A stretch of DNA of 42,510 nucleotides from Spirochaetes bacterium RBG_13_51_14 (GCA_001829455.1 MIBH01000014.1:631-43140); one strand, 5' to 3'; counted from the first letter of the stretch, positions 18,401 through 35,952 are shown. Numbers and translations are program-made. Notes: generated by a model from the letters alone, not told the origin.

Positions 18401-18583
18401 GAGTACCGCGACGACCGGGTGGTCATTACCCAGGATTACCTCGCACCGGGCCTGCATGAGTTCACCTACCTGGTTCGGCCCCTGTTGAAGGGCAGGGCCC
18501 AGGCTCCGGCCGCCGTCTCGAAGCTCATGTATGAGCCGGAGACGTTCGGCCGTACGGGCACCGGTTTCCTCGTGGTGCAATGA
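12461..18583 (+). CDS. Bacterial alpha-2-macroglobulin family protein (YfhM type)
   Basis: A periplasmic protease trap that is thought to protect a damaged cell envelope and pairs with PBP1C. The 2040-aa product has macroglobulin-like beta domains through most of its length, and the reactive thioester motif CLEQ with Cys1535. The ensuing alpha-helical thioester domain (residues ~1500-1800) and the receptor-binding-like C-terminus complete the family layout. It lacks a lipobox. Instead, about 88 basic residues precede one hydrophobic segment at 91-110 (IMLSGGAAIIITAAALSALS), suggesting an inner-membrane signal anchor. AAAGGA lies 8 nt before the ATG. It is longer than E. coli YfhM (about 1650 aa). 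The TGA overlaps the pbpC ATG. Confidence 0.95.
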   Translation: MNLKKNLHAIMKYADSLFRKTHTTANTVIKKSVSLARSVGKQAPVMTRRIITWAKSIRLDRTTITRLKIFVAGDLWPRHLQPFLSVSRNRIMLSGGAAIIITAAALSALSSDKVATIEPNRYREPAPVDNSMLRIVQAAPTGTVTGDDRRKEVTVVFNHPLVPLSKLEDTTAGVLDIAPAIRGNFRWYGSRICAFIPETGWEFGRTYTITVRKGTTSLNGKALPENYSFTFTFTIPELSVSAHPIPYQSGTIDYNQSFSINFSHPVNLADLSGKVRLLCNNQTIPFKTTYWDPASGGDVETGEDEGYGGPGNDAGEPNRRAVIITPTAPFKRDAAVTITVEPGLRAADGAAELKNKKLFTYATHGPLSVAFKQEGVDYYQNFWQAQFEFNNDVDISAARTAIKVTPSIPWRESSRGRTRSIALTSWSVKPGTAYKFTVGPMTDIHGNALVSGDREIEVTVPEYRPEFSLEDDKTLLESTMSQKVPVEMANMPEIVVGVAPVTLKHIQMGLSDSRYSILDNLSYNMIEWKTGVGKHVSGRTGYDIRKYLTSAHTGWLGVTFTGDVISYNGKSERLTRGQIIQATDLGISVKEAFDSSYVWVHSLHRGAPVKGAAVTFYDIDNRIGSGITNEEGYCRIPKNEYGLLKKSLYVVSSGTGDRAFITSANYDLPMYYVCNQFDQNAWERSLGGEIIFDRKLYRPGDTVSLKGILAVREKGKLTPLRNAPISVTISSSKGEQLFSKDIKTSAQGGLWTTCEIPADAPLGHYQVRMALNDRLYVNDTFQVEEFRPVSFSVSVAGLRDASVGEKIPITIEGRYLFGAPMKSAPVTYNCMRMKRRISFPNYSDYTFGDGQLWEETEIDWSNAGYYTGDSGRLDSSGKYVFTLTPRPMLNQEKLQTPDQTLQLSDIYDLKIEAKVKDVDDKSVTKTAYATVYPGSFLIGIRSKNRYQHFSKQFSFDLVALTNDGRHVESRPAVITVIRYNYKNIMSKGPGGTLQPRNMLVKEQVLRQEITLSGAPRTFTFQPADSGGYSIIVQERGGMSYSRDNFYAWGGEMVSWYLDDDDAITLMPDKKEYQPGETARVLIQSPFSRCKAIITLERESVIWQKTMDISENGTPIEIPMKEEYLPNVFLSVMLVRPRVNLPETVDPKTRAEYIANDMGIPKFKAGIVKLSVSNASKKAKLDLVPNKSEYSPGEPVTVTITTEPGAEVALAVADRAVLDLIDYQYANPVNKLYQNWPLGVRILENRRFIIKQYRYTQKGESPGGQGKGDELEGLGGFDKDSEDGSRKDIRYTAYWNPSIIADTEGKATVTFTLPHNLTTFRIMALASINGKYRNANHEFRVRKALVIQKNLPRFIRPGDTLSLGAVVINQTNRGGEFIFSIQSDLLQGKETTTTAAIDAGEAKEITFPVTLNLERYAALKKMTGNSSDNTSPSGQISVKGWLSVKPVDMEKYTGGGFKKSDVIDRLEFNFPVREQPPDEAFTVAGFTSTEEKEFIQFPAPGSVMPEMGGLELALAPTALVGLNRAFAFYKTNPFFCLEQRASAFLLAMSSGELLKQFSFKPPSDRDFDFSRIEELFLGEIDRFQNADGGFKFWKDSTDGRSDPYLTAYVAFILQVAKQRGYRVQSSVVDKVAAFLENYVREPREDGYKYIFESFALINYVLTLKGDHNASLTDLLLDNEQKLSLRAKAYLAMAIGLKKGISDYKDDNHAKRIMEAVKNRMDITTRKVSFKEEGTDNYNRAFSSNGSTLGVILRMMIMLDRTNPLIPNMVQFIIADQGSSVWHDSHSTGLAALALHDYYQAYEKEGSIIPAYTGTVSINGKTAFEPTLDRRKLEVRSTAIPMRNLYAYGPAGVNHPMVFSSSKNNRLYYTATLAYFPLLSTVAPRDEGMEIQRDIIDLGRPSRRDRDGTIIRDNLKRGSIYLVRIRVVTPKPVFNALVVDPIPSNVEIVNTALKTEESSLGKLTTKDRPAYEYWWMDALPTIEYRDDRVVITQDYLAPGLHEFTYLVRPLLKGRAQAPAAVSKLMYEPETFGRTGTGFLVVQ

Positions 18584-20790
18584 TGACCGTACCGTTGAAA
18601 ATCCGCGCCATTGCGCCTCGGGCGGCAGCCCTGGCGGCTGCCGCCGTGATAATCATTTTCCTGGTCTGGCCCGTTTCTTCGGACCGCATCCAGGGCACTG
18701 TCTCGCTCAGGATTCTCTCGCGCGAGGGGACGGTGCTCCGCCAGTTCTGCACCCCCGGCGAAGGAGCCTATGCCCAGTGGGTTGACCTTAAGGAGTATCC
18801 GCCTTATCTGGTGCGGGCGGTTCTTGCGGCCGAAGATCGCCGCTTCTATTATCATCCCGGAATCGACCCCGTTGCCATCTGTCGCGCCACGCTTCAAAAC
18901 ATAAGGAGCCGACGCATCGTATCCGGAGGCTCCACCATCACCCAGCAGCTTGCGCGGATAGCCTGGCGCGACGCTCTTCCCGCGAATAAGTTCCTCCGGA
19001 AGATGTGCGAATTAGCTCTCGCCCTGAAGCTGGAGCTCTCGACTTCAAAGGACCGCATTCTCGAATACTATCTCAACCGCGTTTCCTTGAAGTACAATCA
19101 AGCAGGATTCCCCGCGGCAGCGAAGCGCATATTCAATCGTGACATACGATTCCTGACCCGCGAGGAACATACGGCGCTGGCAATCCTCATCCGGCAGAAT
19201 GCCGTGACTGAAGAAAAGTTCGACGCGCGTTTCCTCATGCTCTGGAAAAAGCTCACCGCCGGGACGCCCCGCGATCTCCCTTCTCTGCGGCAGGCTGTAT
19301 TCGCGCCGCCGCCATTCCGCGCCCAACGGGACGACTCAACCACGCTCCACTTCGAGTCATGGATCCGCGCGGCGAATCCCGGGCTTGACGGCGACGTGCG
19401 TACCTGCATTTATGAAAATTGCAACGAAAAAATCCACCGGATCGTCAACAGCGAGCTTCTCTTTCTCGAACGCTACGATGCGGAGAATGCCGCGGTGATC
19501 GTTCTCGACCTCTCAGGCAAAGAAAAACTGCCCTTAATCGCCATGGTGGGGTCCCGTAATTTCAACGGCTCCATTGACGGGCAGGTGAACGGATGCCTGG
19601 CGGTGCGCCAGGCGGGCAGCGCCCTGAAGCCCCTGCTCTACGCCCTCGCCATGGACGAGAAGGGGTACCTCCCCAACACCATTATCTATGACCGCGAGCT
19701 GGGTTACCCGGCCGATCAGGAAGAAACCTACCTCCCGAAAAATTACGACCTCTCGTACTGGGGACCCCTGACCATCCGCGAAGCCCTGGGAGCATCGAGG
19801 AACGTTCCAGCCGTGTCCATGATCAGGGCTGTGGGCGTGCCCGTTTTTTACAACCTCCTGGTGCGCGCCGGATTCGATCATATGACCTCTGGTCCGGATC
19901 ACTACGGCCACGGCCTGGCCCTCGGCACTGGCGGGGCGAGCCTCATGCAGATGGCCCGCGTCTACGCAGCAATCGCACAGGGTGGCATATTGAAGCCGGT
20001 CGTTGTGGGCAAGGACCGACGGGGGTGCCCCATCACCGTTGGGAGCAGCGGACGCCTCATGACTGAAAAAACGGCTCACTATATCACGAACATCCTGTCT
20101 GACCGTGAAATACGGCGTCGCTCATCGCCGGGGAGCAGGAGCTTTCTCGACTTTCCATTCGATGTGGCGGTGAAGACGGGGACATCCAAGGATTATCGCG
20201 ATGCATGGACGCTGGGTTTCACCACGCGCCATATCGTGGGCGTATGGGTCGGGAATTTCTCCGGCAGGCCCATGAAACGGATATCGGGCGCATGGGGATC
20301 GGGCCGGATATTTCATCAGGTGATGCGGCTTCTCACCGGGAAAGAACGTCCCCATTTCACAAAACCGGATGGCTATGTGGACATAAAGCTGTGCCGGATG
20401 AGCGGTCTGCGCGCTCGCACAGAATGCCCCTCCTACCGGGAAATCTTCGCCCCGGGTGATCTCCCTACGAGAAGTTGTCCTGTTAAGCACGGAACCTTCC
20501 ACACCTATAACCCTGACGATATCCCCACGGTGGTATCGCCGGCGCAGGGCGAAGCTTTCGTCATAGACCCGCTTATTTCCCGGGAGCGGCAGGCGGTGCC
20601 GCTGAAAATCTCCTACCGCGGCGATTATTCTCTGAAGGCGAAACGCTACTACTACAGAATTGACAATGGGACAAAAAAACAGGTGACGAGCGATCTCGAG
20701 GAGCCGGTATTGCTGCAACGGGGGCGGCATGAAATAGTACTCTATGAAGGATCAACGGCCATCGACACTGTCGTCTTTAGTGTGGAATAG
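18580..20790 (+). CDS. pbpC: Penicillin-binding protein 1C
   Basis: Bifunctional peptidoglycan enzyme of the inner membrane, facing the periplasm. The 736-aa product has an N-terminal TM at ~12-32. The GT51 glycosyltransferase domain carries EDRRFYYHPGID (Glu85) and GGSTITQQLAR. The transpeptidase domain has S347-ALK, SRN (406-408) and KTG (532-534). A C-terminal BiPBP_C domain (about 650-736) is typical of class C. The ATG overlaps the alpha-2-macroglobulin stop (ATGA). A second ATG immediately follows at 18583. The same gene pair occurs in E. coli as yfhM-pbpC. Confidence 0.97.
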   Translation: MMTVPLKIRAIAPRAAALAAAAVIIIFLVWPVSSDRIQGTVSLRILSREGTVLRQFCTPGEGAYAQWVDLKEYPPYLVRAVLAAEDRRFYYHPGIDPVAICRATLQNIRSRRIVSGGSTITQQLARIAWRDALPANKFLRKMCELALALKLELSTSKDRILEYYLNRVSLKYNQAGFPAAAKRIFNRDIRFLTREEHTALAILIRQNAVTEEKFDARFLMLWKKLTAGTPRDLPSLRQAVFAPPPFRAQRDDSTTLHFESWIRAANPGLDGDVRTCIYENCNEKIHRIVNSELLFLERYDAENAAVIVLDLSGKEKLPLIAMVGSRNFNGSIDGQVNGCLAVRQAGSALKPLLYALAMDEKGYLPNTIIYDRELGYPADQEETYLPKNYDLSYWGPLTIREALGASRNVPAVSMIRAVGVPVFYNLLVRAGFDHMTSGPDHYGHGLALGTGGASLMQMARVYAAIAQGGILKPVVVGKDRRGCPITVGSSGRLMTEKTAHYITNILSDREIRRRSSPGSRSFLDFPFDVAVKTGTSKDYRDAWTLGFTTRHIVGVWVGNFSGRPMKRISGAWGSGRIFHQVMRLLTGKERPHFTKPDGYVDIKLCRMSGLRARTECPSYREIFAPGDLPTRSCPVKHGTFHTYNPDDIPTVVSPAQGEAFVIDPLISRERQAVPLKISYRGDYSLKAKRYYYRIDNGTKKQVTSDLEEPVLLQRGRHEIVLYEGSTAIDTVVFSVE

Positions 20791-21065: not shown

Positions 21066-22529
21066 TCATACCTCGAAGTAAAGCGCGTATTCCCAGGGAT
21101 GGGGCCTGAGCGCCACCTGATCGATCTCGCTCTTGCGCTTGTAGTCAACGTAGCTTTCGATCAGGTCACCGGTAAAAACGTTCCCCTTGACAAGAAACTC
21201 GCGATCTCTCTCGAGACCGTCCATGACTTCCTTAAGCGTCCCCGGAGTCGACCGTATGTGCTTCTTCTCCTCGTCGGAAAGCTCGTAAATGTCCTCGTCT
21301 ATCGGATCAGGCGGCTCGATCTTATTCTCAATGCCGTCTATACCCGCCATGAGCATCGCCGCAAAGGCAAGGTATGGATTGCACGACGGGTCGGGGCACC
21401 GGAACTCGATCCGTTTCGCCTTTTCGCTCTCGCTGTACATCGGTATCCGCACGGCGGCCGACCGGTTCCGCGCCGAGTACACGAGGTTGATCGGCGCCTC
21501 ATACCCCGGCACCAGCCTCCGGTACGAGTTGGTAAGCGGCGCGGCAAAAGCGAGAATCGCTTCTATATGCCTGAACAATCCGCCGATAAAATACCGGGCG
21601 CTGTCGCTCAGATCAGCGTATTTCCCCATCTCGTAAAATATGTTTTTCCCTTCCTTCCACAGGCTGATGTGGGTGTGCATCCCCGATCCGTTATCCATGA
21701 AAATCGGTTTCGGCATGAAGGTCACGGTTTTCCCGTACCGGTGCGCGACGTTCTTGATGATATACTTGTAGTGCACCAGCGTATCGGCCTGCTTGACGAG
21801 GTCGGCGACCTTGAGGCCGATCTCGGTCTGTCCGGCTGTCGCGACCTCGTGGTGATGAAGGTCGACCTGCACACCGCAGTTCCGGAGAATTTCGACCATC
21901 TTCGATCGCAGGTTGTGAAGCTGGTCGAACGGCGCCGCCGGATAATACCCCTGCTTGTATCCGATCTTGTACCCCAGGTTGGCGTCATCCTTGCCCGAGT
22001 TCCAGAACGCCTCGGATGAATCCACTTCATACATCGCCCGGTTGTACGTCTGCTCGTACCGCACCTTGTCGAAAATGAAAAACTCCGGCTCGGGACCGTA
22101 GTAGCCCGTGTCCGCAATGCCGGTGGTCTGCAGATATTCCACCGCCTTCTGGGCGATATAGCGCGGGTCCTTGGTATATCTCTTTCTTTTTACGGGGTCG
22201 ACTATATCGCACAGGCAGCTCAGCGTCCGGTTATCAAAAAACGGATCGATGAACGCAGTCGAGGGATCGGGCCGCATCAACATGTCGCTGTTGTGGATGT
22301 GCTGAAAACCCCTGATCGAAGACCCGTCAAACCCAGTACCCACGGAAAAGAGCTCCTCGTCTGCCCGGTCAGCCGTTATGGTATAATGCTGCAGTCGGCC
22401 GAAGGGATCCACGAACTTGAGATCGAGAAACTCGATCTTCCGATCCCTGATTATCTTCAAAATCTCGGATATCGACGTAAATTCCTTGTGGCCGTTTACC
22501 GCGTATATCTCTTCAAACACAGCTTCCAT
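21066..22529 (-). CDS. glnA: Glutamine synthetase, type I
   Basis: Makes glutamine from glutamate, ammonia and ATP in the cytoplasm. The 487-aa product has the type I landmarks FDGSSIRGF, GPEPEFFIFD, the ATP-site NGSGMHTHIS, NSYRRLVPGYEAP and RCPDPSCNPYLAF. Tyr415 in DEDIYELSDEE aligns with the adenylylated tyrosine (Tyr397) of the enterobacterial enzyme, so covalent control is possible, although the adenylyltransferase is not in this window. AGGAGG lies 6 nt before the ATG and overlaps the stop codon of the flotillin gene, so translation is coupled. It is the last gene of amtB-glnK-flotillin-glnA. Confidence 0.98.
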   Translation of the reverse strand: MEAVFEEIYAVNGHKEFTSISEILKIIRDRKIEFLDLKFVDPFGRLQHYTITADRADEELFSVGTGFDGSSIRGFQHIHNSDMLMRPDPSTAFIDPFFDNRTLSCLCDIVDPVKRKRYTKDPRYIAQKAVEYLQTTGIADTGYYGPEPEFFIFDKVRYEQTYNRAMYEVDSSEAFWNSGKDDANLGYKIGYKQGYYPAAPFDQLHNLRSKMVEILRNCGVQVDLHHHEVATAGQTEIGLKVADLVKQADTLVHYKYIIKNVAHRYGKTVTFMPKPIFMDNGSGMHTHISLWKEGKNIFYEMGKYADLSDSARYFIGGLFRHIEAILAFAAPLTNSYRRLVPGYEAPINLVYSARNRSAAVRIPMYSESEKAKRIEFRCPDPSCNPYLAFAAMLMAGIDGIENKIEPPDPIDEDIYELSDEEKKHIRSTPGTLKEVMDGLERDREFLVKGNVFTGDLIESYVDYKRKSEIDQVALRPHPWEYALYFEV

Positions 22530-22539
22530 GTGCTGCCTC

Positions 22540-23826
22540 CTAGTCTAATTCTTTCTTCATCGGCAAAGACTTCTTGTCTCCAACAATGTTCGTCAAATCA
22601 ATACCGGTGGCGCATTTAATCTGCTCAAGAAACGTGATGACACTCGACGTCACATCGCCGACATGGCTCGGAATTCCGCCGTTGCCCATGACCACCAGCT
22701 TGTCCACCTTCAGGTTGTCCCCGATGACCTTGGACACGCTCTCCACGATGTTCGGCAGTATATGGAGCATGAAGAGCTCCTTGCTTTCGCCGTTCTCCCA
22801 CTCGGCCCTCATTTTCTTCACCGCGTCCGCCATGGCAACTCCCTGTTCTTTAAGAAACGAAGCCTTTCCGATTGCCTTCATCTCGCTCGCCTTCTTTTCG
22901 GCCTCGGCCGGTATGACGATCTCCGCGTTAAATTTTTTCATGTTGACATTCATCTTGATTCCTTCAAGCGTATCCTGCTGCTTGAGCTCTTCAATCTTGC
23001 TCGCATACTCGGCCACCGCTTCAATCGTATGGGTCTTTTCCTTCAGCTGGGCCTTCCGGTTCCTGAACCCGGCTTCAAATTCCTCGATGGCGACCTGGGA
23101 CTGGAATTCCACATCAGCCGCCTTCTTCTTTGAAGTCGCCTCAACGATTTTCGCTTCCGCCTCGGATTCTGCCTCCTTGATCCGCGCATCTCTCTGAACC
23201 ATGGCGTTTCTCTGCCGTCCTACCGCCTCGAGGTATCCCTGCGTGTCGTTGAGCTCCTCAATTTTAACTGAATCCAGAGTGAATCCGAGATTCGCAAGCT
23301 CGCCTTTCGCTTTATCATACACATTTTTTTCAAAGTCGATCCGCCGGTAGTTCGCCTCCTCAGGCGTGAATGTCGCGAGCACGCCTCTCAGAATACCTTC
23401 AACGGTCGATCGCGCTATGGTCTCGATCTCAGTGGAAGATTTTCCCAGCAATCGCTCAACCGCGTTCTCGAGGCCGTTTCCCTCGCGCGACGCGATCTTC
23501 ACGTGCGCTATTGCGGCGAGATTTATCGGAATCATCCCGTTCGAGAGCGCGTCCTCGATTTTTATAGATAGCGGTATGCTCGAAAGGGACAGCCGCGATA
23601 CCTTTTCCAGGATCGGGGTCCTGAGTCCCATCCCGCCCCGGATTATCCGATAGCCGACCACTTCGCCGCTTTTCAGCTTCCGCTTCTTACCCGAAAAAAT
23701 CAATATCTCGTTCGGCTCGCAGATCTTCATGTTGATTTTGAGATAAAATAATATCACCCCCAGACCGATCAAGACCAGAGATATCAGCAGTGTCCAGTCA
23801 ATGTTATACATTACGACGTTGTTCAT
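22540..23826 (-). CDS. Flotillin-like SPFH domain protein
   Basis: A membrane-anchored scaffold of the SPFH/Band 7 superfamily. The 428-aa product has an N-terminal hydrophobic segment at about 10-30, then an SPFH domain (about 35-200). A long coiled-coil region follows with the Glu/Ala-rich repeats typical of flotillins (AESEAEAKIVEATSKKK), and then a more globular C-terminus. AGGAGG lies 5 nt before the ATG. It sits in a nitrogen operon, 114 bp after glnK and 10 bp before glnA, which is unusual for this family. A role in organising AmtB, GlnK or glutamine synthetase at the membrane is inferred only from the gene order. Confidence 0.92.
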   Translation of the reverse strand: MNNVVMYNIDWTLLISLVLIGLGVILFYLKINMKICEPNEILIFSGKKRKLKSGEVVGYRIIRGGMGLRTPILEKVSRLSLSSIPLSIKIEDALSNGMIPINLAAIAHVKIASREGNGLENAVERLLGKSSTEIETIARSTVEGILRGVLATFTPEEANYRRIDFEKNVYDKAKGELANLGFTLDSVKIEELNDTQGYLEAVGRQRNAMVQRDARIKEAESEAEAKIVEATSKKKAADVEFQSQVAIEEFEAGFRNRKAQLKEKTHTIEAVAEYASKIEELKQQDTLEGIKMNVNMKKFNAEIVIPAEAEKKASEMKAIGKASFLKEQGVAMADAVKKMRAEWENGESKELFMLHILPNIVESVSKVIGDNLKVDKLVVMGNGGIPSHVGDVTSSVITFLEQIKCATGIDLTNIVGDKKSLPMKKELD

Positions 23827-23877
23827 GTTTGCCTCCTGTTGTTATAATGTATTCATGCATTTAAGTTTCACTAAAGT

Positions 23878-23933
23878 CCCCCTCCGTGCTTCGGCCGTGA
23901 GCTCAGCCGAACGGGGATTGAGGGGCTAATCCC
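23878..23933 (-). repeat. Tandem hairpins between glnK and the flotillin gene
   Basis: TTCGGC (23890-23895) pairs with GCCGAA (23906-23911), extended outward by C-rich and G-rich flanks. Next to it, GGGATT (23914-23919) pairs with AATCCC (23928-23933). On the transcribed strand these lie directly after the glnK stop. There is no T-tract. They may partly uncouple amtB-glnK expression from flotillin-glnA, or may be a dispersed palindromic repeat. Confidence 0.5.
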
Positions 23934-23940
23934 AGATATA

Positions 23941-24282
23941 TTACCCGATCGCTTTGCCGCCCCGTTCGCCGGTTCGGATTCGTATGCAATCGTTCAGATC
24001 AAAGACAAAAATCTTGCCGTCGCCGATCTCTCCTTCCCGGGCGCCGCGTATAATGGCGCTGATTGTGCGCTCGAGAAATGCGTCGTTCACCGCAATCTCG
24101 ATCTTCACCTTATGGAGCAGGTTACCGACCTCCTTGACGCCCCGGTATACCTCGGTGACGCCCCTCTGCCTGCCGCACCCAAGCGCGTCGACCACGGTCA
24201 TGAGGGTCACCTCTTCCTTCTCAAGCTCGGCTTTCACCTGTTCCAGTTTGTGCGGCTTTATAATTGCTACCACGTATTTCAT
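23941..24282 (-). CDS. glnK: PII nitrogen regulatory protein (GlnK-like)
   Basis: Trimeric sensor of 2-oxoglutarate, ATP and ADP that blocks AmtB and adjusts nitrogen enzymes. The 113-aa product has the normal length, with [14 protein letters not shown] at the start, the nucleotide-site [10 protein letters not shown], and IRIRTGERG at the end. The T-loop reads [13 protein letters not shown]: Tyr46 is kept, but position 51, the uridylylated tyrosine of proteobacterial PII, is Glu. Control by GlnD uridylylation is therefore not expected. AGGAGG lies 7 nt before the ATG, and the gene starts 12 bp after amtB, which supports the GlnK assignment. Confidence 0.96.
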
Positions 24283-24294
24283 ATCTTATCCTCC

Positions 24295-25518
24295 TTATTC
24301 CATAAGCGTATAGCCGGCTTCGTGATGCTGCGTCAGATCGAGGCCGATATACTCGTCATCGTTGTCAACTCTGAGGCCGATGACAACATCGACGACCTTA
24401 AATATGATAAAAGTCCCGACAGCGGAGAATACAACCGCCACGGCGACCGCCAATCCCTGAATCAGGAACTGCTTCGGATTCCCGTAAAAAAGGCCGTTGG
24501 CGCCGCCGGGATTTATCTGCTTTGTCGCGAAAAGCCCGGTCGCAAGCGCCCCGACAATCCCCGCGATGCCGTGGACTCCGAACACGTCCAGGGAATCGTC
24601 ATACCCGAACTGCGCTTTTATCTTCGTGACGAAGATAAAGCCAAATATGCTGCCGCACGCGCCTATGACTATCGCGGCCATCGGTTTAACGTACCCGGCT
24701 GCAGGTGTAATGGCGACCAGCCCGGCCACGATGCCGGTTATGACTCCTAACACGGTTGGCACCTTGTTTTCGATCCAATCGAGGATCATCCAGGTTATGG
24801 CCGCGGCAGCTGCGGCGGTGTTGGTGTTAAGGAACGCCGAAACCGTTACCGGGCCGACCGAAAGCGCGCTTCCCGCGTTGAATCCGAACCAACCGAACCA
24901 GAGAAATCCCGCTCCCAGTACCGCCAATGGCAGATTGTGGGGAGCATGCCCGGTGGTCATTCCGGTCCTTTTGCCCAGGCATAGAGCCATAATAAGAGCC
25001 GATATTCCAGCCAGTATGTGTATGACGGTTCCACCGGCGAAGTCGAGCGCGCCGAGCTTCGCGAGCCACCCGTCGCTTGACCATACCCAGTGCGCCATCG
25101 GATCATAGATCAGCGTAGTCCAGAGCAGCGTAAACACCACAAAGCCGCTGAACTTGATCCGCTCGATGAACGCGCCTATGATAAGCGCCGGCGTGATGAC
25201 CGCGAACATCATCTGGAACAGCACGAAAACCTGCTGGGGAATCGTCTGTCCCTTGATCGGATCCATCCCAACGCCGGTTAACGCCGCATAGTTGAGATAC
25301 CCGATTACGCCTCCCAGGTCGGGCCCAAATGCCAGGCTGTACCCGATAAGAATCCACTGGATTGATACTACCGAGAGAATCACATACGTTTGCATCAATA
25401 CGGAGAGAACATTTTTCTTCCGTACCAGGCCGCCGTAAAAGAATGCCAGAGTCGGCGTCATGATCATCACAAGCGCTGTTGCGATCAGCATCCATACGGT
25501 ATCAACGTAATTTATCAT
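24295..25518 (-). CDS. amtB: Ammonium transporter AmtB
   Basis: Inner-membrane trimeric ammonium channel. The 407-aa product has about eleven hydrophobic segments. The signature DFAGGTVIHILAG contains the first pore histidine (His167), and DVFGVHGIAGIVGAL contains the second (His316). FFYGGLVRKKN near the N-terminus and the Phe gate region (FQMMFA) are also typical. It has no obvious cleaved signal peptide. It is the first gene of the amtB-glnK-flotillin-glnA operon. AGGAGG lies 6 nt before its ATG. The 776-bp region upstream is shared with the divergent type III glutamine synthetase gene. Confidence 0.97.
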   Translation of the reverse strand: MINYVDTVWMLIATALVMIMTPTLAFFYGGLVRKKNVLSVLMQTYVILSVVSIQWILIGYSLAFGPDLGGVIGYLNYAALTGVGMDPIKGQTIPQQVFVLFQMMFAVITPALIIGAFIERIKFSGFVVFTLLWTTLIYDPMAHWVWSSDGWLAKLGALDFAGGTVIHILAGISALIMALCLGKRTGMTTGHAPHNLPLAVLGAGFLWFGWFGFNAGSALSVGPVTVSAFLNTNTAAAAAAITWMILDWIENKVPTVLGVITGIVAGLVAITPAAGYVKPMAAIVIGACGSIFGFIFVTKIKAQFGYDDSLDVFGVHGIAGIVGALATGLFATKQINPGGANGLFYGNPKQFLIQGLAVAVAVVFSAVGTFIIFKVVDVVIGLRVDNDDEYIGLDLTQHHEAGYTLME

Positions 25519-26294
25519 GTCAATCCTCCTGCTTTAATTTTAATATTACATATTGTTTATATAACCATTCCGGAACGCCCTGTAAATAATCGCATTGAAA
25601 AATAACATCTGTTACATATATTAATTATCAGGATGCGGCGTTTATATATCCATAGATAATTATGGACTCGATTTGGGTCAATGTGATAATTTCAAAAACA
25701 GGCTGATTCAGAGAAATTTTACATTCGGTTAACGCGGTTGTAATATGGTTGTAACAATCGGAGCGCTGGGGGCATCACGAATAAATTTTAAAGAGCTCGA
25801 TCAACAATCATCGATGAGGATCATCAGTACATCAGAACATCCGTAATTTCAACACGGGCAACGGCCGTGAATACCAACATACTTTTAATTGAGAACTTGG
25901 ATGGATCGGTCCGGTGAGGCAGGTCTATGAAGATCCATCGTATGAACAACATGGATGTATCGCAATTTTTCAATGCAAAATGCCGGGAAAATGTAAGGTT
26001 TTGCGGTAAACACCCGTTAACAGCTTGTAAAAGCCGTTTATCAGCGTGCTTGTTTACCTACTATTCATTTCGCACAACCGCCCCTGAAAAACACCTCGGA
26101 TGGGGTTTTTCAGCAAACTCTTTAGAAATAATAAATAAATTTCTTGAAAAATCTTAGTATCATTAAATAGAATTATTACAGGGGTGTTAAATTTGCCCGA
26201 TTTAGCTCAAACGTTATACTGCAACTATTGACAAAAAAATATATCATTAGTAACGCTTACATTCGATATAATACATTATCCACTGGAGGCACCA
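25519..26294. other. 776-bp divergent regulatory region between amtB and glnN
   Basis: The region is unusually long for this compact segment and has no credible gene. It contains a direct repeat, GGTTGTAA at 25736-25743 and 25747-25754 (one helical turn apart), an 8-bp inverted repeat GGTAAACA/TGTTTACC (26005-26012 and 26051-26058), and the strong hairpin at 26084-26113. A TATAAT box at 26267-26272 and a TTGACA at 26228-26233 are not spaced as one promoter. I found no convincing sigma-54 site. Nitrogen-responsive control is plausible, but the regulator is not evident. Confidence 0.6.
26084..26113 (+). repeat. Hairpin upstream of the type III glutamine synthetase gene
   Basis: CTGAAAAACACC (26084-26095) and GGGGTTTTTCAG (26102-26113) match at 11 of 12 pairs around a 6-nt loop. 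It lies about 180 bp upstream of the glnN ATG. No T-tract follows. It could be part of a structured leader if transcription starts upstream, or an operator. Confidence 0.55.
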
Positions 26295-28466
26295 ATGAGA
26301 AAGATTACACCGACTATCGCAACCGAGAGAATCTATAAGGCTGAAAAAGAAAAAGACCTCCCCATATCCAGTTATTTCGGCGAGGAAACCTTCAGCCAGA
26401 AAGTAATGAAGGAAAAACTTCCCAAAAGCATTTATGAAAGGCTGATGGAAAATATAGATAAGGGAAAAAAACTGGATATTGAAACGGCAAACGCCGTGGC
26501 ACATGCCATGAAGGAATGGGCCCTTGAAAACGGCGCCACCCATTTTGCTCACTGGTTCCAGCCGATGACGGGTGCGACCGCGGAAAAGCACGACGCCTTC
26601 ATCGAAATTTCCGGCCCCGGCGAAGTGATGGAGCGGTTTACCGGAGAACAGCTCGTCCAGGGAGAGCCGGATGCGTCGAGCTTCCCCAGCGGAGGACTGC
26701 GCGCCACATTCGAGGCCCGCGGATATACCGCGTGGGACATGTCGAGCCCGGCCTTTCTCAGGAAAAACGGCATCGGCACCACCCTCTGCATCCCGTCGGT
26801 CTTTATATCCTACAACGGAGAGGCGCTGGACAAAAAGACTCCCCTCCTCCGCTCAATCCGCGCGGTAAACGACAGCGCGCTGCGGCTGCTCAAGCTCCTG
26901 AGCAATCGGAAGTCGAAAAAGGTTATTTCAAACGTCGGCCCGGAGCAGGAATACTTCTGCATAGATATGGATTACTTCTACAAGCGCCAGGACCTGGTGC
27001 TCACCGGCCGGACAATCCTGGGAGCGCCGCCGGCGAAGGGTCAGGAGCTGGAGGATCAGTACTTCGGCAGCATAAAGCAGCGCATGCAGTCCTTCATGCA
27101 TGATGTGGAGGAGGACCTGTATAAACTGGGTATCCCGGCCAAGACCAGGCATAACGAGGTGGCGCCGAGCCAGTTCGAGATCGCTCCCATTTTCGAAGAG
27201 GCCAACATCGGCGTGGATCACAATCTTCTCGTCATGGACAAGCTGCAGCAGGTCGCGCGGCAGCACAACCTGGCGGTCCTGCTCCACGAAAAGCCTTTCG
27301 CGGGCATCAATGGCTCGGGCAAGCACCTCAACTGGTCGCTGACCACGGACGATGGCATCAACCTGTTCAAGCCGGGGAAAACGCCTCACGACAATATTCA
27401 GTTCCTGGCGTTCCTCCTTGCCACCATGAAGGCGGTTCACCGGCACGCCGACCTTCTGCGGGCGTCGGTCGGATCGGCGGCTAACGACCACCGCCTGGGT
27501 GCCAACGAGGCGCCGCCGGCCATCATATCGATCTTTCTCGGTGATCAGCTCACCAAAATCCTTGAATGCATCGAAAAGGGAATCGCCAACGACGTTACTG
27601 ATAAAACAATTATCGATCTGGGCATATCCTCCCTTCCGGTGGTGAGCAGGGACAATTCCGACCGAAACCGCACTTCGCCCTTCGCCTTTACCGGCAACAA
27701 GTTTGAATTCAGGGCCGTCGGATCGTCGCAGAACATTTCCTTCCCCGCGACGGTGATCAATACCATCGTGGCGGAAAGTATCGATGAACTTGCCGATATG
27801 ATTGAAAAACGGGGAGCCGGCAATATCAAACAGACGGTCATCGATATCATAAAAGAGGAGCTTCCCAAGGTAAAATCGGTCCTCTTCATGGGTGATAACT
27901 ATGCCGAAGAATGGCACAAGGAAGCAAAACGCCGCGGCCTGCCCGACCTGAAGACCACGCCGGAAGCGCTCAGAGCCCTTGAGACCAAGAAGGCGCAGAC
28001 GCTCTTCGAGAAGTATAAGGTTCTTTCCCCGCTGGAGTTGAAATCGCGGCACACCATCTGGCTTGAAAAGTTCTGCAAGGACATAGAAATTGAAGCGAGG
28101 ACCATGTTCAGCATCATATCCAGCCAGGTGATACCGGCAGCGGTAAAATACCAGAAGGAGCTCGCCGAGTCAATTTCCGGCACTGAAAAAGTGCTCGGCA
28201 CCGCTGCGGACCTGTCAGCCCAAAAGAGCCTGTTGAAGCGGATTACAGAGCTGATAAACGGCGTTTCAACCGCCCTCGCAATGCTGAAATCAAAACTGGA
28301 AAAAAGAAACGGGATTGATGACCACCAGAAGCTGGCGGATTACTTCTCCAATGAAGTTAAAACAGCCATGGACGAGATCAGAAAACAGGTGGACGAACTG
28401 GAACTGCATATCGCCGATGATATGTGGCCCATGCCGAAATTCTGGGAAATGCTGTTCGTGAATTAG
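26295..28466 (+). CDS. glnN: Glutamine synthetase, type III
   Basis: A large dodecameric glutamine synthetase unrelated in architecture to the type I enzyme at 21066. The 723-aa product matches the family's usual length of about 730. Distinctive segments are WFQPMTGATAEKHDAFIE, GGLRATFEARGYTAWDMSSP, the catalytic-core GPEQEYFCID, GINGSGKHLNWSL and the ASVGSAANDHRLGANEAPPAI region. GGAGG lies 6 nt before the ATG. It is divergent from amtB. Type III enzymes are found in Bacteroidetes, cyanobacteria and spirochaetes and are often used under nitrogen limitation. It is probably co-regulated with amtB through the shared upstream region. Confidence 0.97.
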   Translation: MRKITPTIATERIYKAEKEKDLPISSYFGEETFSQKVMKEKLPKSIYERLMENIDKGKKLDIETANAVAHAMKEWALENGATHFAHWFQPMTGATAEKHDAFIEISGPGEVMERFTGEQLVQGEPDASSFPSGGLRATFEARGYTAWDMSSPAFLRKNGIGTTLCIPSVFISYNGEALDKKTPLLRSIRAVNDSALRLLKLLSNRKSKKVISNVGPEQEYFCIDMDYFYKRQDLVLTGRTILGAPPAKGQELEDQYFGSIKQRMQSFMHDVEEDLYKLGIPAKTRHNEVAPSQFEIAPIFEEANIGVDHNLLVMDKLQQVARQHNLAVLLHEKPFAGINGSGKHLNWSLTTDDGINLFKPGKTPHDNIQFLAFLLATMKAVHRHADLLRASVGSAANDHRLGANEAPPAIISIFLGDQLTKILECIEKGIANDVTDKTIIDLGISSLPVVSRDNSDRNRTSPFAFTGNKFEFRAVGSSQNISFPATVINTIVAESIDELADMIEKRGAGNIKQTVIDIIKEELPKVKSVLFMGDNYAEEWHKEAKRRGLPDLKTTPEALRALETKKAQTLFEKYKVLSPLELKSRHTIWLEKFCKDIEIEARTMFSIISSQVIPAAVKYQKELAESISGTEKVLGTAADLSAQKSLLKRITELINGVSTALAMLKSKLEKRNGIDDHQKLADYFSNEVKTAMDEIRKQVDELELHIADDMWPMPKFWEMLFVN

Positions 28467-30811: not shown

Positions 30812-30837
30812 CAATATATAAAAGTAAGGAAATAATG

Positions 30838-31071
30838 ATGTCCGCTACGGGAAAAATAACCAGCAAGGGGCAGATAACAATTCCTCGTGAAATACGAAAA
30901 GTCCTCGGCTCAGACGTCATCGAGTTTGAAGTTTCCGGTGAAGTAGTACTGCTGAAGCCGGTCAAGAGCGTCGCCGGGAGCCTTCATGCCTACGCCCGGC
31001 GGCAGGCCCCATTCGCGGAGATTCGAGATGCGACGTGGGGATCGGTCGTTAAGGATAAGTACGCGAAATGA
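30838..31071 (+). CDS. AbrB/SpoVT-type antitoxin
   Basis: A 77-aa DNA-binding antitoxin that should neutralise the PIN toxin encoded next to it and repress the pair. The N-terminal swapped-hairpin fold is clear (TGKITSKGQITIPREIRKVLG), followed by a basic C-terminal tail (HAYARRQAPFAEIRDATWG) that would bind the toxin. Two ATGs occur in tandem; the second (30838) is 7 nt from AAGGA and is preferred to 30835. Its stop overlaps the toxin ATG (ATGA). Confidence 0.9.
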   Translation: MSATGKITSKGQITIPREIRKVLGSDVIEFEVSGEVVLLKPVKSVAGSLHAYARRQAPFAEIRDATWGSVVKDKYAK

Positions 31072-31448
31072 CCGCACTACCGGACACCAATGTCATTCTA
31101 CGGTATCTGCTCGGTGACAATCCGGCACAGTCTCCGGCAGCGGAAGAGCTTTTCGAGAAGGTACGGGCCGGGAGGGAGAAGGCCCTCATACTGGAAAGCG
31201 TTCTCGTGGAATGCGTCTACGTTCTCTGCAAATACTACCGGGTACCACGAGGGGAGGCTGCGGCGCGGCTGTCCGTCCTTCTGCATTACCGCGGCATCGT
31301 GAACACCGACACGAACGAACTAGTCCGCGCCCTCGCTCTATTTGAGAAGGGTAAGCTTGACATCGTCGACTGCATTCTCAGCAGTAAGTCCGATGCCGGT
31401 GGATACCGTCTCTTCAGCTTTGACGAGAATCTCAAGAAAATGAAATGA
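31068..31448 (+). CDS. PIN-domain toxin (VapC type)
   Basis: Probable Mg-dependent ribonuclease toxin of a type II toxin-antitoxin pair. The 126-aa product has the PIN acidic residues in order: Asp6 in PDTNVILRYLL, Glu48 in LVECVYVL, Asp98/Asp101 in KLDIVDCIL and Asp119 in FSFDENL. Translation is coupled to the antitoxin gene by a 4-bp overlap. It ends 13 bp from the convergent deacetylase gene. The RNA target is not predictable from sequence. Confidence 0.92.
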   Translation: MTALPDTNVILRYLLGDNPAQSPAAEELFEKVRAGREKALILESVLVECVYVLCKYYRVPRGEAAARLSVLLHYRGIVNTDTNELVRALALFEKGKLDIVDCILSSKSDAGGYRLFSFDENLKKMK

Positions 31449-31461
31449 CCGCGCGGACCCG

Positions 31462-32772
31462 TCACGTTCTGAAATACTCTTTCTTCACCCGGTTGATCAT
31501 CTGTATAGTGCTGTACTTACCGGATTTCTTCGCATCGTTCAGGAGCTTCATACCTTCCTTCTCGCAGTTCCCGCAGGCATGCAGTGGAATCTCGATCCCG
31601 AGCGAAAGGGGATACACCGAGGAATAGGTCTCAAGGCTGAACAGGCCGGCGCATTCCCCGCAACGCAGAATCGATTCGAGCTGCGTTTCCCTGATGCCGT
31701 CCGTGTCGTAAAAGATGTTCTTCTTGCGGGTCATGAACTCCCCGACAGGCGGCAGTCCCTGGTACGAAGGCGGGTTAAAATAGGATTCCAGCACCACGTC
31801 TTTCAGCTTCTTTATATAGCTGGTGATCCTGGCGTCCTGCCGCAGGGCATCCCTGTTGTAGTCGGGCTCGCGCACGTGGGAATAGTCGATACCGGCCATG
31901 GCCAGAATGATCCCCAGGTTCACATAGGGGAGCGCCCCCTGTATGGAATAGCCCCCTTCGAGCACAGCGATGTCGGGATTGAGCTTTTCGTTCAATATCG
32001 CGTACCCCTGGGCTGAGAAACTCATGTTGGTAATGGGGTCGGTGTAATGGTTGTCCTGGCCGGCGGAATTTACTATGAGCTCGGGCCCGAAGTCCGCCAG
32101 GATCGGGAGCACCATCTCGTCGATGGCGTAAAGGATTCCTTCGTCGCTGGTCTCCGGCGGCAGGGGAATATTGATGGTCTTCCCAATAGCGGCCGGACCG
32201 CCCAGCTCGTCCACGTGGCCCGATCCGGGGTAGAGGGTCCGTCCGTCCTGGTGGATTGAGATATAGAGAACGTCCGGGTCGTTCCAGTAGATATCCTGGG
32301 TTCCGTCGCCGTGGTGGCAATCCGTGTCAACCACCGCTATCTTTTTCAATCCGTAGGTGTCGCGGATATACTCTATCATGATCGCTTCATTATTAATATT
32401 GCAGAAGCCGCGGTTACCGTGAACCGACTTCATGGCATGGTGCCCGGGAGGCCGCACCAGGGCGAAGGCCTTGTCCGCCTGGCCGTCCATTACGATGCGG
32501 GCTGCCTTGATGGCGCCGCCGGCGGAAATCATGTGCGATTCCGTGGTCACGCCCGCCACGTCGGGAAAGCAGAAGTGGGTCCGCATAACGTCCTCTTCCG
32601 TGGCGATATCCGGCTTGAATTCCACAAGCCCCTCAATGTCAAATACGCCCTCCTCGCGGAGTTGGTCCTGCGTGTACAGGAGCCGTTCCTCCCGCTCGGG
32701 GTGCGTGGGAGATATGGCCCAGTCGAAAGCCGGGAAAAATATCAACCCCATCCGGTTTTTTGCTCTGATCAT
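31462..32772 (-). CDS. Histone deacetylase family protein with C-terminal Cys4 module
   Basis: A zinc-dependent deacetylase of the HDAC/AcuC/polyamine-deacetylase superfamily. The 436-aa product keeps the catalytic set: RPPGHHAM (His pair), DTDCHHGDGTQ (metal Asp and His), SAGQDNH (metal Asp) and LEGGYS (catalytic Tyr). After the normal domain it carries about 65 extra residues with C371-GE-C374 and C400-GN-C403, a probable zinc ribbon not usual in this family. The ATG at 32772 overlaps the TGA of the HyuA-like gene (ATGA); an upstream in-frame start (32808) would lie inside that gene. The substrate is unknown: protein lysine, acetylpolyamine or another acyl amide. Confidence 0.92.
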   Translation of the reverse strand: MIRAKNRMGLIFFPAFDWAISPTHPEREERLLYTQDQLREEGVFDIEGLVEFKPDIATEEDVMRTHFCFPDVAGVTTESHMISAGGAIKAARIVMDGQADKAFALVRPPGHHAMKSVHGNRGFCNINNEAIMIEYIRDTYGLKKIAVVDTDCHHGDGTQDIYWNDPDVLYISIHQDGRTLYPGSGHVDELGGPAAIGKTINIPLPPETSDEGILYAIDEMVLPILADFGPELIVNSAGQDNHYTDPITNMSFSAQGYAILNEKLNPDIAVLEGGYSIQGALPYVNLGIILAMAGIDYSHVREPDYNRDALRQDARITSYIKKLKDVVLESYFNPPSYQGLPPVGEFMTRKKNIFYDTDGIRETQLESILRCGECAGLFSLETYSSVYPLSLGIEIPLHACGNCEKEGMKLLNDAKKSGKYSTIQMINRVKKEYFRT

Positions 32773-34442
32773 GACAGCCTCTTGATCACGCCGGGTTTGA
32801 TCTGACACTTGACCCTGATATCCCTGCCCGAGCTGTAAAATCCTTCCACCATGTTGAACGACGACGATTCAATGATTTCAGTGTCCTGTTCGGTGACCGG
32901 CACGCCCAGGCTCTGTAGATGTTTCGCCAGGTGCGCGCGCACATCCCGTTCCGCATCCTTAACAGAATAGCCGGTGGAGACATTCTGCCGCACGCCGATG
33001 TTCGGGATGAGGAGCACGCCCCGGCCCGTATCGGCGAAGAGCTCGATATCGATGGTGGTTTTGGCCAGGGCGGCGCCGATGGCGTTGGCCACGTCATAGT
33101 TCTTTGGAATTACGACCGCCGCGCCGAATGCCTCGGCGAGCATATCTCGGAAGGCCTCGGCCGGACCGCCCATAACGTATACCGTATCGGGCGTTATCCT
33201 CTTCCCTTCCAGCATTTCATGAATTGTATAAACCGGCCGATTGTGGATATCATCCAGCATCCGGTACACCTCATCCTTAATCCGGGCCACGGCAAAATCA
33301 ATCGCCGCACCAGCAAGGTTTTCCGGGGTCATTCCATTGTTGGCGGCAAGCCCGGATATCCCCCGTTCTGACGCTCCAGCATCCATAAAGGTGATAATTT
33401 TCAGATAGTTAAAAGCGTCCACCAGCGCAGGCTCTTTCCCGCCTGCGGCCATGGCCGGGCCCTTCCGATCCGGTCCCACTGACACGTCCCTTCCGTTCAC
33501 GTGTATGACGGAGTCGCCGCCGACGCCGATCGAGCGGGTCTTGAGCGCCCGCACCAGAGTGGGGTTCGACTGGAGCGAAATGCCCTCCTTTTCTATGAGC
33601 GGAATGCCGTCGGCGAAAATGGCGATATCGGTGGTGGTGCCGCCGATATCCAGTATGATCGAATCGTGCGTGATGTCGCACAGGGCCGCGATGCCCATGA
33701 CGCTGGCTGCAGGACCCGAGAGGATCGATTCAACCGGCAGGTCGCGGGAAAGGCCGAGCGGCATGGTGCCTCCGTCCGCTTTGAGAACATTGAGTTCGGC
33801 CTCAATCCCCAGTTCCCGGAGTCCCGCGTCAATGGCGTCGGCGAAACCGTTGTACAGGCGCCAGACCGCCGAGTTGAAATATGCGGTGACAATGCGGCGG
33901 GGAAAATTCAATTGCCCCGAAAGCATGTGTCCTCGCGTAACGAAATCAGATGCGGTCATAACCGCTTCGGCGATTTCATTCTCATGATCGGGATTCCGCG
34001 TGGAAAACTTGGTTACCGCCGCAAAAACTCTGATCCCGCTTCCGGCCGCCTCTTCCGCGATCCGGGATATGCCGTTCCGGTCAAGCCCCTTGATCTCTGT
34101 TCCCCGGTGGTCGATGGAGCCGTCGACCACATAAAACTGACTGCCGATTGTAAAATTGCCCGGATCGATGCCGGGACCGGCCGATATGATGACGCATACG
34201 TTTTCGAGCTTGTTTTCAACGATAGCGTTGGTGGAAAGGGTGGTGCTGAGGTTGACGCGCTTTATGTTCTTTTTTTTCGCATCCCGGGTGATCTCCTCGA
34301 TTGCCGCGCGCACCGAGCGTAGCAGGTTGTCATGATCGGTTACGGCTTTGTAGTGGGCAACGATACCGTCGTCGTCGATAAGGACCGCGTCGGTGTGGGT
34401 GCCGCCGACATCAAGACCCAGGAACAGATCGAATTTAGCCAT
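32769..34442 (-). CDS. Hydantoinase/oxoprolinase family ATPase (HyuA-like)
   Basis: A stand-alone subunit of the HyuA/acetone carboxylase beta/oxoprolinase group, which activates an amide or carbonyl substrate with ATP. The 557-aa product has an ASKHA fold: phosphate loop 1 GLDVGGTHTDAVLIDDDG at about 9-26, TTLSTNAIVE, phosphate loop 2 ILDIGGTTTDIAIF, GVGGDS, and the adenosine motif YVMGGPAEAF. No HyuB partner is nearby. It is translationally coupled to the deacetylase gene downstream and lies 17 bp after the 61-aa gene. The ribosome site is weak (GGA). The substrate is unknown. Confidence 0.9.
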   Translation of the reverse strand: MAKFDLFLGLDVGGTHTDAVLIDDDGIVAHYKAVTDHDNLLRSVRAAIEEITRDAKKKNIKRVNLSTTLSTNAIVENKLENVCVIISAGPGIDPGNFTIGSQFYVVDGSIDHRGTEIKGLDRNGISRIAEEAAGSGIRVFAAVTKFSTRNPDHENEIAEAVMTASDFVTRGHMLSGQLNFPRRIVTAYFNSAVWRLYNGFADAIDAGLRELGIEAELNVLKADGGTMPLGLSRDLPVESILSGPAASVMGIAALCDITHDSIILDIGGTTTDIAIFADGIPLIEKEGISLQSNPTLVRALKTRSIGVGGDSVIHVNGRDVSVGPDRKGPAMAAGGKEPALVDAFNYLKIITFMDAGASERGISGLAANNGMTPENLAGAAIDFAVARIKDEVYRMLDDIHNRPVYTIHEMLEGKRITPDTVYVMGGPAEAFRDMLAEAFGAAVVIPKNYDVANAIGAALAKTTIDIELFADTGRGVLLIPNIGVRQNVSTGYSVKDAERDVRAHLAKHLQSLGVPVTEQDTEIIESSSFNMVEGFYSSGRDIRVKCQIKPGVIKRLS

Positions 34443-34459
34443 GATGCATCAATTCCCCG

Positions 34460-34645
34460 TCAGGCTTCATGAGCCTTTTTTCCGTAAACCCGTTCGTAGG
34501 CGGCGCAGTAGGGGCACAATCCATTCTCGATATACTTTACGAACCAATAGGCGAGGCCGCGCTGCTTTTTCCGCGCCCGTGAGCATACCGGGCACTCGAC
34601 GCACCGCTGAGACATTTTTCTGTCCCGCTCGGTAATGGTTTCCAT
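34460..34645 (-). CDS. 61-aa Cys-rich (probable zinc-binding) protein
   Basis: A small basic protein with five cysteines: C15-VE-C18-PV-C21 and C44-PY-C47, a likely one-zinc ribbon, joined by a conserved-looking helix (RKKQRGLAYWFVKYIENG). It ends AYERVYGKKAHEA. AGGAG lies 9 nt before the ATG at 34645; an internal ATG at 34615 lacks a site. It is first in a unit with the HyuA-like ATPase and the deacetylase. The family is not recognised. A zinc-bearing accessory subunit, as in acetone carboxylase gamma, is only an analogy. Confidence 0.8.
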   Translation of the reverse strand: METITERDRKMSQRCVECPVCSRARKKQRGLAYWFVKYIENGLCPYCAAYERVYGKKAHEA

Positions 34646-34851: not shown

Positions 34852-35595
34852 ATGAGAATTATTGCCGTTTCAAATAACAAGGGCGGCGTGGGCAAGACGA
34901 CCAGCACCGTTAACATAGCCGCCGCTCTTCAGATGAAGGGGAAAAGGGTCTGCGTTATCGACCTGGACCACCAGGCCCAGGCGACCTACCATCTGGGCTA
35001 CAACCCAAAGCAGATAAAAAAGTCGATATTCCACGTCCTTAAAGGAGAGCTCCCGTATGACGAAATACTCATCGAGCGGAACGAGCTCCATCTCCTGCCC
35101 GCGAACCAGGAACTGAAGGATATTGAATTCCTTCCAATCCCCGCAAAGGAATTTCTCCTCAGGGACGCCCTGGAAGAGGTCAACACATACGATTTTATTC
35201 TCATCGACTGCCCCCCGTCCCTGGGGGTCCTCACGCTCAATGCCCTGGCCTATTCCAAGGAGATCCTGGTGCCGCTCCAGGTGCAGTTCCTTCCCTTTCA
35301 CGGGATGTACAACCTGTTCGAGGCAGTGCAGATGGTGAAACGGCGGCTTAACAAGGGGATCGATATAACCGGCATTATCGGCACCATGTACAACGCCAAG
35401 CGGGCCATAAACCGGGAAGTCATCGAGGAGACCGAAAACCGGCTGCCGGGCAAGCTGTTTGACACTCTCATCCGCGAAAATGTCGCCCTCCAGGAAGCGC
35501 CCAGCTGGGGCAAAACCATCTTCGAGTATAAGCCGTCGAGCACCGGCGCGGAAGATTACATGAAGCTGACTGAAGAGATAATAGATCGGGATTGA
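34852..35595 (+). CDS. ParA/Soj family ATPase
   Basis: A deviant-Walker P-loop ATPase that positions DNA or protein cargo on the nucleoid or membrane. The 247-aa product starts with KGGVGKTTSTVNIAAAL (signature lysine present) and has Walker A' IDLDHQAQAT, Walker B ILIDCPPSLGVLTLNAL and the C-terminal Soj-like region. There is no N-terminal helix-turn-helix, so it is of the chromosomal type. No parB gene or parS-like palindrome is seen nearby, so it is an orphan here. The gene downstream (DUF559) converges with a 6-bp gap. Confidence 0.93.
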   Translation: MRIIAVSNNKGGVGKTTSTVNIAAALQMKGKRVCVIDLDHQAQATYHLGYNPKQIKKSIFHVLKGELPYDEILIERNELHLLPANQELKDIEFLPIPAKEFLLRDALEEVNTYDFILIDCPPSLGVLTLNALAYSKEILVPLQVQFLPFHGMYNLFEAVQMVKRRLNKGIDITGIIGTMYNAKRAINREVIEETENRLPGKLFDTLIRENVALQEAPSWGKTIFEYKPSSTGAEDYMKLTEEIIDRD

Positions 35596-35601
35596 TCAGT
35601 T

Positions 35602-35952
35602 CTATTCCAGAAGCGCCCTGATTGTATTTATCACCGAATCGATATTATTAATAACATCTCTATTCTTAAATCGTATTGTTTTAATTCCGATGGTTCGCAG
35701 CAGCTCATCCCGGTAAACATTATATTCCTTTCTGCCCTCATGTTCATCATCATCGATTTCAATGGCCAGAAAGCGTTCATGACAGAAAAAATCCAGAATA
35801 AATCCGCAGACGGGGTGCTGGTTCCTGAACAGATACCCTAATTTATTATCTCTCAGGCACGCCCATAACAGGGATTCAGCCTCGGTCATAGTATTCCTCA
35901 TGTCGTTTGCAAGCTGAGTTATATAATCAATCGAGTGTATTCCTTCATTCAT
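35602..35952 (-). CDS. DUF559 (Vsr-like endonuclease fold) protein
   Basis: A 116-aa single-domain protein of the DUF559 group, which shares the very-short-patch-repair endonuclease fold. Landmarks are MTEAESLLWACLRDNKLGYLFRNQHPV, FILDFFCHERFLAIEIDDDEH with the likely metal-binding acidic residues, and YRDELLRTIGIKTIRFKNRDV. The motif normally reads EIDGxxH; here Gly is replaced by Asp. No clear ribosome site precedes the first ATG (35952). An internal ATG at 35901 is close to where the conserved domain starts. The biological role of these genes is not known. Confidence 0.88.
   Translation of the reverse strand: MNEGIHSIDYITQLANDMRNTMTEAESLLWACLRDNKLGYLFRNQHPVCGFILDFFCHERFLAIEIDDDEHEGRKEYNVYRDELLRTIGIKTIRFKNRDVINNIDSVINTIRALLE

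Follow-up and report, generated by a model that had tools for sequence, protein, structure and literature searches.

To our knowledge, ATPases of the HyuA family have been described as working together with HyuB, and bacterial enzymes resembling histone deacetylases (HDACs) as working alone. The hydrolysis of amides by HDAC-type enzymes does not need ATP. In CapAB, 5-oxoprolinase and N-methylhydantoinase (HyuA/HyuB), the ATP-using component is an ASKHA-type alpha subunit with the motifs PHOSPHATE 1 and PHOSPHATE 2, and for CapAB it was proposed that the lactam is activated by phosphorylation in CapA and then cleaved at the metal site of CapB (PMC8453981). The alpha module is also shared by Apc and Acx (PMC5214803), in which the gamma subunit carries a four-Cys zinc site. 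The gene pair described here resembles all of these systems in its alpha-type ATP-binding protein, but differs from them in that the partner of this protein is an enzyme with the HDAC fold.

The window analysed here is a stretch of 42,510 nucleotides from Spirochaetes bacterium RBG_13_51_14 (MIBH01000014.1:631-43140), whose genome (G000) is 90 percent complete and consists of 84 contigs with a total length of 3.56 Mb. The gene coordinates and Pfam matches agreed with the layout given in the initial annotation, where a gene for a cysteine-rich peptide is followed after a short gap by a gene for a HyuA-like ATPase, which overlaps by an ATGA with a gene for an HDAC-superfamily protein (Table 1). 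An alternative start of hdac, GTG at 32808, would lengthen the protein by 12 aa; ATG at 32772 was chosen because the starts of the homologues match it. All three are considered real genes, because they are conserved within the genus (80-85% identity for the peptide, 72-75% for HyuA and 82-87% for HDAC).

Table 1. Features of the three-gene locus (positions counted from the first nucleotide of the window)
Feature	Position	Strand	Basis or remark
Gene of 61-aa five-Cys peptide	34460-34645	minus	Cys at 15, 18, 21, 44, 47
Gap between peptide gene and hyuA, 17 bp	34443-34459	minus	
HyuA-like ATPase gene, first of core pair	32769-34442	minus	557 aa; Pfam and AlphaFold model
HyuA PHOSPHATE-1 motif DVGGTHTD, residues 11-18	34389-34412	minus	core invariant in alignments
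HyuA segment IDHRG, residues 110-114, replacing the HyuB-contact fingerprint R/KERiDsxG	34101-34115	minus	HyuA alignment
HyuA Lys145 (KF..R)	34008-34010	minus	161/161; unseen in other HyuA types compared
HyuA PHOSPHATE-2 motif DIGGT, residues 265-269	33636-33650	minus	D265, G267, G268, T269 in 161/161
4-bp overlap ATGA between the end of hyuA and the start of hdac (ATG 32772)	32769-32772	minus	
HDAC-superfamily zinc amidohydrolase gene, second of core pair	31462-32772	minus	436 aa; Pfam, model, catalytic residues
HDAC catalytic His111-His112	32437-32442	minus	161/161
HDAC zinc ligands Asp151 and His153	32314-32322	minus	161/161
HDAC zinc ligand Asp240	32053-32055	minus	161/161
HDAC catalytic Tyr275, EGGY motif	31948-31950	minus	161/161
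HDAC C-terminal extension CxxC-x25-CxxC (Cys371, 374, 400, 403)	31465-31764	minus	Cys in 161/161

On the downstream side, genes for a MazE/AbrB-like antitoxin and a PIN-domain toxin (30835-31448, plus strand) directly follow and converge with hdac, while on the other side a ParA-like ATPase gene (34852-35595, plus strand) diverges from the peptide gene and is followed by a DUF559 endonuclease-like gene (35602-35952, minus strand). More distant parts of the window contain a stretch (21066-28466) that encodes two glutamine synthetases, one of 487 aa and one of type III, as well as an AmtB-like ammonium transporter; in many relatives the type III gene converges with hdac. They also contain genes which, judged by translation only, encode an alpha-2-macroglobulin-like protein of 2040 aa and then a PBP1C-like penicillin-binding protein (12461-20790, plus strand).

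The HyuA-like protein matched the Pfam families Hydant_A_N (3e-31) and Hydantoinase_A (1e-41), and its AlphaFold model (pLDDT 90) aligned over 503-519 residues with the Apc alpha-type chain 5l9w_b (Z 29.2) and with CapA 6yra (Z 28.3; 519 residues). The segment at the position of the fingerprint for contacts with the beta subunit, which was defined in PMC5214803, was compared in an alignment with HyuB-type, DUF917-type and DUF1638-type HyuA proteins. The data showed that this fingerprint is replaced, that the adenosine motif GxxPGP (PMC8453981) is substituted by RxGPxMA, and that the protein ends ahead of the C-terminal barrel domain. Hence, as judged by comparison with CapAB and the HyuA/HyuB enzymes, the HyuA-like protein has lost features of HyuB-binding alpha subunits, and because GxxPGP is missing, its binding of ATP must differ in detail from that of CapA. 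It has conserved residues of its own, as Lys145 and Phe146 are found together in 161 of 161 sequences, Arg149 in 159 of 161, and Lys32 is invariant or nearly so. The initial annotation had described the ATPase as lacking HyuB, and this was borne out for the whole genome, because HyuB (PF02538) was absent both from it and from all pair-bearing genomes of Spirochaetota; the only three Spirochaetota genomes with PF02538 (G024, G048 and G057) are without the pair. A short HyuA with a non-HyuB partner is also encoded beside DUF917, of the S-methyl thiohydantoin desulfurase family (L049:6762-9472), but there the partner family is unrelated to HDAC and the HyuA belongs to a different subgroup. A fusion of DUF1638 to a HyuA-like ATPase was observed in G024 (L051:5841-8762).

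The second protein of the pair matched Hist_deacetyl in Pfam (6.5e-67), and in a fold search covering residues 5-336 of its model (pLDDT 89), residues 7-334 matched HdaH 1zz0 with a Z of 38.9 and an rmsd of 2.4. The best PDB matches, by which its place relative to cluster 1 of Graf et al. (2024) was assessed, were HDAC6, Kdac1 and HdaH. The protein has the arginase-deacetylase fold, the HH pair, the Asp-His-Asp ligands and the Tyr of the HDAC superfamily, and Asp149 is also invariant (161/161). By comparison, the active-site motifs are intact in both HyuA and HDAC. Both RPPGHH and EGGY, which are among the criteria for short-acyl enzymes (Graf et al. 2024; PMC11532494), are present, which suggests that the protein is a short-acyl enzyme. 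A further motif is mostly PIT, and in some family members its second residue is L and its third is A; ApaH has PIS. The likeness to HdaH and ApaH extends to RPPGHH, Asp-His-Asp, EGGY and the fold of the catalytic domain; the pair's HDAC differs in its additional 100-aa Cys4 domain at the C terminus and in its obligate HyuA-like partner. This extension is ordered in the model, lies outside the portion aligned to solved HDACs, and is predicted to form a zinc ribbon in an alpha/beta domain of about 100 aa. It gave only weak matches to zinc-ribbon families in Pfam, and none with an E below 0.08 in a profile search of the PDB. Although the gamma subunit of Apc and Acx also has four zinc-site cysteines, the Cys4 site of the pair belongs to HDAC and does not match the gamma family in sequence, and the pair has no beta subunit.

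The distribution of the two genes was compared in three bacterial phyla. Among 59 genomes of Spirochaetota, the same 36 carry both the HyuA and the HDAC subfamily, 23 carry neither, and none is discordant. The genes are adjacent in 35 of the 36; in the exception (G054, from another order) they are on different contigs. At the level of the order, they are adjacent on one strand in all 30 loci. Among 247 genomes of Desulfobacterota, HDAC was found in 64, HyuA in 65, both in 64 and neither in 182; the locus of the one extra HyuA (G545) runs off the end of its contig. Here the genes are adjacent in 57 of the 64 pair-bearing genomes and unlinked in seven. In the Bacillota-type phylum of the Tepidanaerobacteraceae MAG L139, HDAC is present in 155 of 398 genomes, and hyuA is directly upstream of hdac in all 70 Bacillota/clostridial-type genomes examined. 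Among 80 named loci the genes are adjacent in 73, with a median gap of 3 bp and with overlap in 32 of these 73, while in six of the seven non-adjacent loci HyuA is encoded elsewhere in the same genome (five Desulfovibrio-type genomes and the genome of L126), and the seventh is at a contig end. The Fisher P values for co-occurrence were 7e-17 and 5e-59, which overstate the independence of the genomes because these are related. The distance matrices of HyuA and HDAC were correlated with r = 0.85 to 0.87, with HDAC being the more conserved and more slowly evolving protein. No protein fusing HyuA and HDAC was found; the apparent fusions (long open reading frames in L104, L110, L132 and L196-L199) proved to be read-through, either out of frame or from upstream, in GC-rich DNA. 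Both genes are retained, though unlinked, in at least 13 genomes, including G054, which indicates that their co-translation is not essential. Synteny by itself can hardly account for the fact that several lineages keep both genes in an unlinked state. Hence, the strict co-occurrence, the adjacency and the often coupled translation of the genes across three phyla suggest that the HyuA-like ATPase and HDAC are almost certainly functional partners.

The inclusion of the peptide in this unit was not upheld. The peptide gene adjoins hyuA only in its own genus (G000-G005) and, at a distance of 170 bp, in G007 of a sister genus, while it is apart from hyuA in eight other genomes (including G010, G015, G020, G022, G023, G040 and G042) and is present in G028, which has no hyuA-hdac pair. 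Its neighbor in its own genus, and also in G015, where hyuA is not adjacent, is the gene of the ParA-like ATPase. A Pfam search with the peptide gave no match above cut-off, and neither Pfam nor NCBIfam related it to the gamma family of acetone carboxylase, to which it had initially been likened; this identity was rejected, as the genome also has no HyuB-type subunit. The 17-bp spacing and the fact that the peptide gene is next to hyuA in all six members of the genus (G000-G005) could be read as signs that all three proteins form one complex with a gamma-like peptide, as in acetone carboxylase. This is extremely improbable, and is largely refuted by the neighborhoods in which the peptide is non-adjacent, absent, without the pair or beside parA, as well as by the missing gamma-subunit match; unlike in Apc and Acx, the pair is not consistently accompanied by a separate Cys-rich peptide. 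The peptide is probably co-transcribed with the pair in this locus, outside the conserved unit, and since its adjacency is so confined, it is probably a local passenger. Thus, the proposal that tight coupling reflects one pathway held for the ATPase and the deacetylase, which recur together across three phyla with one contig-end exception, and failed for the peptide, because the trio does not recur.

Comparison of the neighborhoods revealed no third gene common to the lineages. Type III glutamine synthetase adjoins hdac in 17 Spirochaetota loci; it was rejected as a partner, because it is convergent and limited to this lineage. In 12 Desulfobacterales loci epmA is directly downstream of hdac. 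A general role in lysylation of EF-P by EpmA was dismissed, because the window genome has no real EpmA, its matches being frames of about 500 aa below the cut-off that correspond to lysyl-tRNA synthetase. Of the 60 clostridial-type loci sampled, 24 have the pair inside a mutS-mutL-miaA-hfq operon or a miaB-miaA remnant. The arrangement (miaB)-mutS-[hyuA-hdac]-mutL-miaA-hfq was seen in L247, L248, L251, L253, L256-L259, L261, L262, L284-L287 and others, and miaB-[hyuA-hdac]-miaA-hfq in L246; a gene of a PF04445 SAM-dependent methyltransferase is often present in the mutS-[hyuA-hdac]-mutL loci. Lineage-specific neighbors elsewhere include mnmA, trmL, rlmN, tgt and the gene of the CCA-adding enzyme. 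These genes, together with the clostridial-type loci, are the reason to consider that the substrate could be a modified tRNA base, such as the hydantoin ring of ct6A, a bold and unsupported extension that we regard as highly improbable. The variety of the neighborhoods suggests that the role of the pair is general and self-contained, and not part of one specialized pathway.

As the pair contains the same two ingredients as CapAB, an alpha-type user of ATP and a metal hydrolase, the latter being of another type, we infer a mechanism in which both proteins would act together in one ATP-dependent reaction. With the help of ATP, the HyuA-like subunit would activate the carbonyl of an amide, lactam, hydantoin-type or carbamoyl group, by phosphorylation or in another way. 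The HDAC-type subunit, in the place of HyuB, would then hydrolyze the C-N bond so activated by means of its zinc site, and the Cys4 domain could serve as a docking or substrate-recognition module. ATP-dependent activation followed by amide cleavage appears to be the most economical reading, and we prefer it tentatively, as an assignment that falls a little short of probable. Points against a joint reaction are that HDAC-type enzymes hydrolyze amides without ATP, that no fused protein was found, that the genes can be unlinked, that HDAC is the more conserved of the two proteins, and that HyuA has no GxxPGP. The genomic data would be explained almost as well by consecutive separate reactions or by deacylation of HyuA. 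The two proteins could be separate enzymes that act in succession on one compound and form no complex, with a HyuA-like kinase or other ATP-dependent enzyme preceding the deacetylase or following it. Co-occurrence fits such consecutive enzymes equally, as does the adjacency, and both genes are kept where they are unlinked; however, pathways of this kind usually have further enzymes, for which a third gene shared by the lineages would be expected, and this makes the explanation rather unlikely.

It is also conceivable that HDAC is a regulator which removes acyl groups from lysines of HyuA, as AcuC does on acetyl-CoA synthetase, while HyuA alone performs the metabolic work. The AcuC-AcsA precedent, the RPPGHH and EGGY motifs, which fit a short-chain lysine deacetylase, and the conservation of Lys145 and Lys32 are consistent with this role, but HyuA, the protein to be regulated, changes faster in evolution than HDAC, and HDAC was never found without HyuA. 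Moreover, a lone HyuA would then lack a known hydrolytic partner, so that we consider it improbable. A role as acetylpolyamine amidohydrolase, with the pair in polyamine metabolism, is suggested by the resemblance of PIT to the PIS of bacterial ApaH and by the genes of carboxynorspermidine synthase and decarboxylase downstream of hdac in a Desulfovibrio clade, and in L149 after epmA and speA. On the other hand, neither the window genome nor 42 of the 64 pair-bearing Desulfobacterota genomes have nspC, and the enrichment of this gene is weak (odds ratio 2.6, P 0.005, with kinship uncorrected). As the nspC profile does not track the pair, the polyamine pathway was rejected as a general role, and the identity of HDAC as an acetylpolyamine amidohydrolase is very doubtful.

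No report linking HyuA-type and HDAC genes was found in a search confined to the open-access literature, and an earlier mention elsewhere is possible. The occurrence of the pair across three bacterial phyla points to a so far undescribed two-part enzyme system. With hardly an exception, the two genes are kept together, and the pair is present in about 39 percent of the sampled genomes of one phylum, by the count of HDAC, and in a quarter of those of another. That no function has been described for it leaves a substantial gap, which is open to direct testing. If HDAC indeed replaces HyuB, the pair would link ATP-driven activation of a carbonyl to the HDAC fold. If it does not, a partner would still have been assigned to hundreds of proteins that are now labelled "histone deacetylase family" and "hydantoinase/oxoprolinase".
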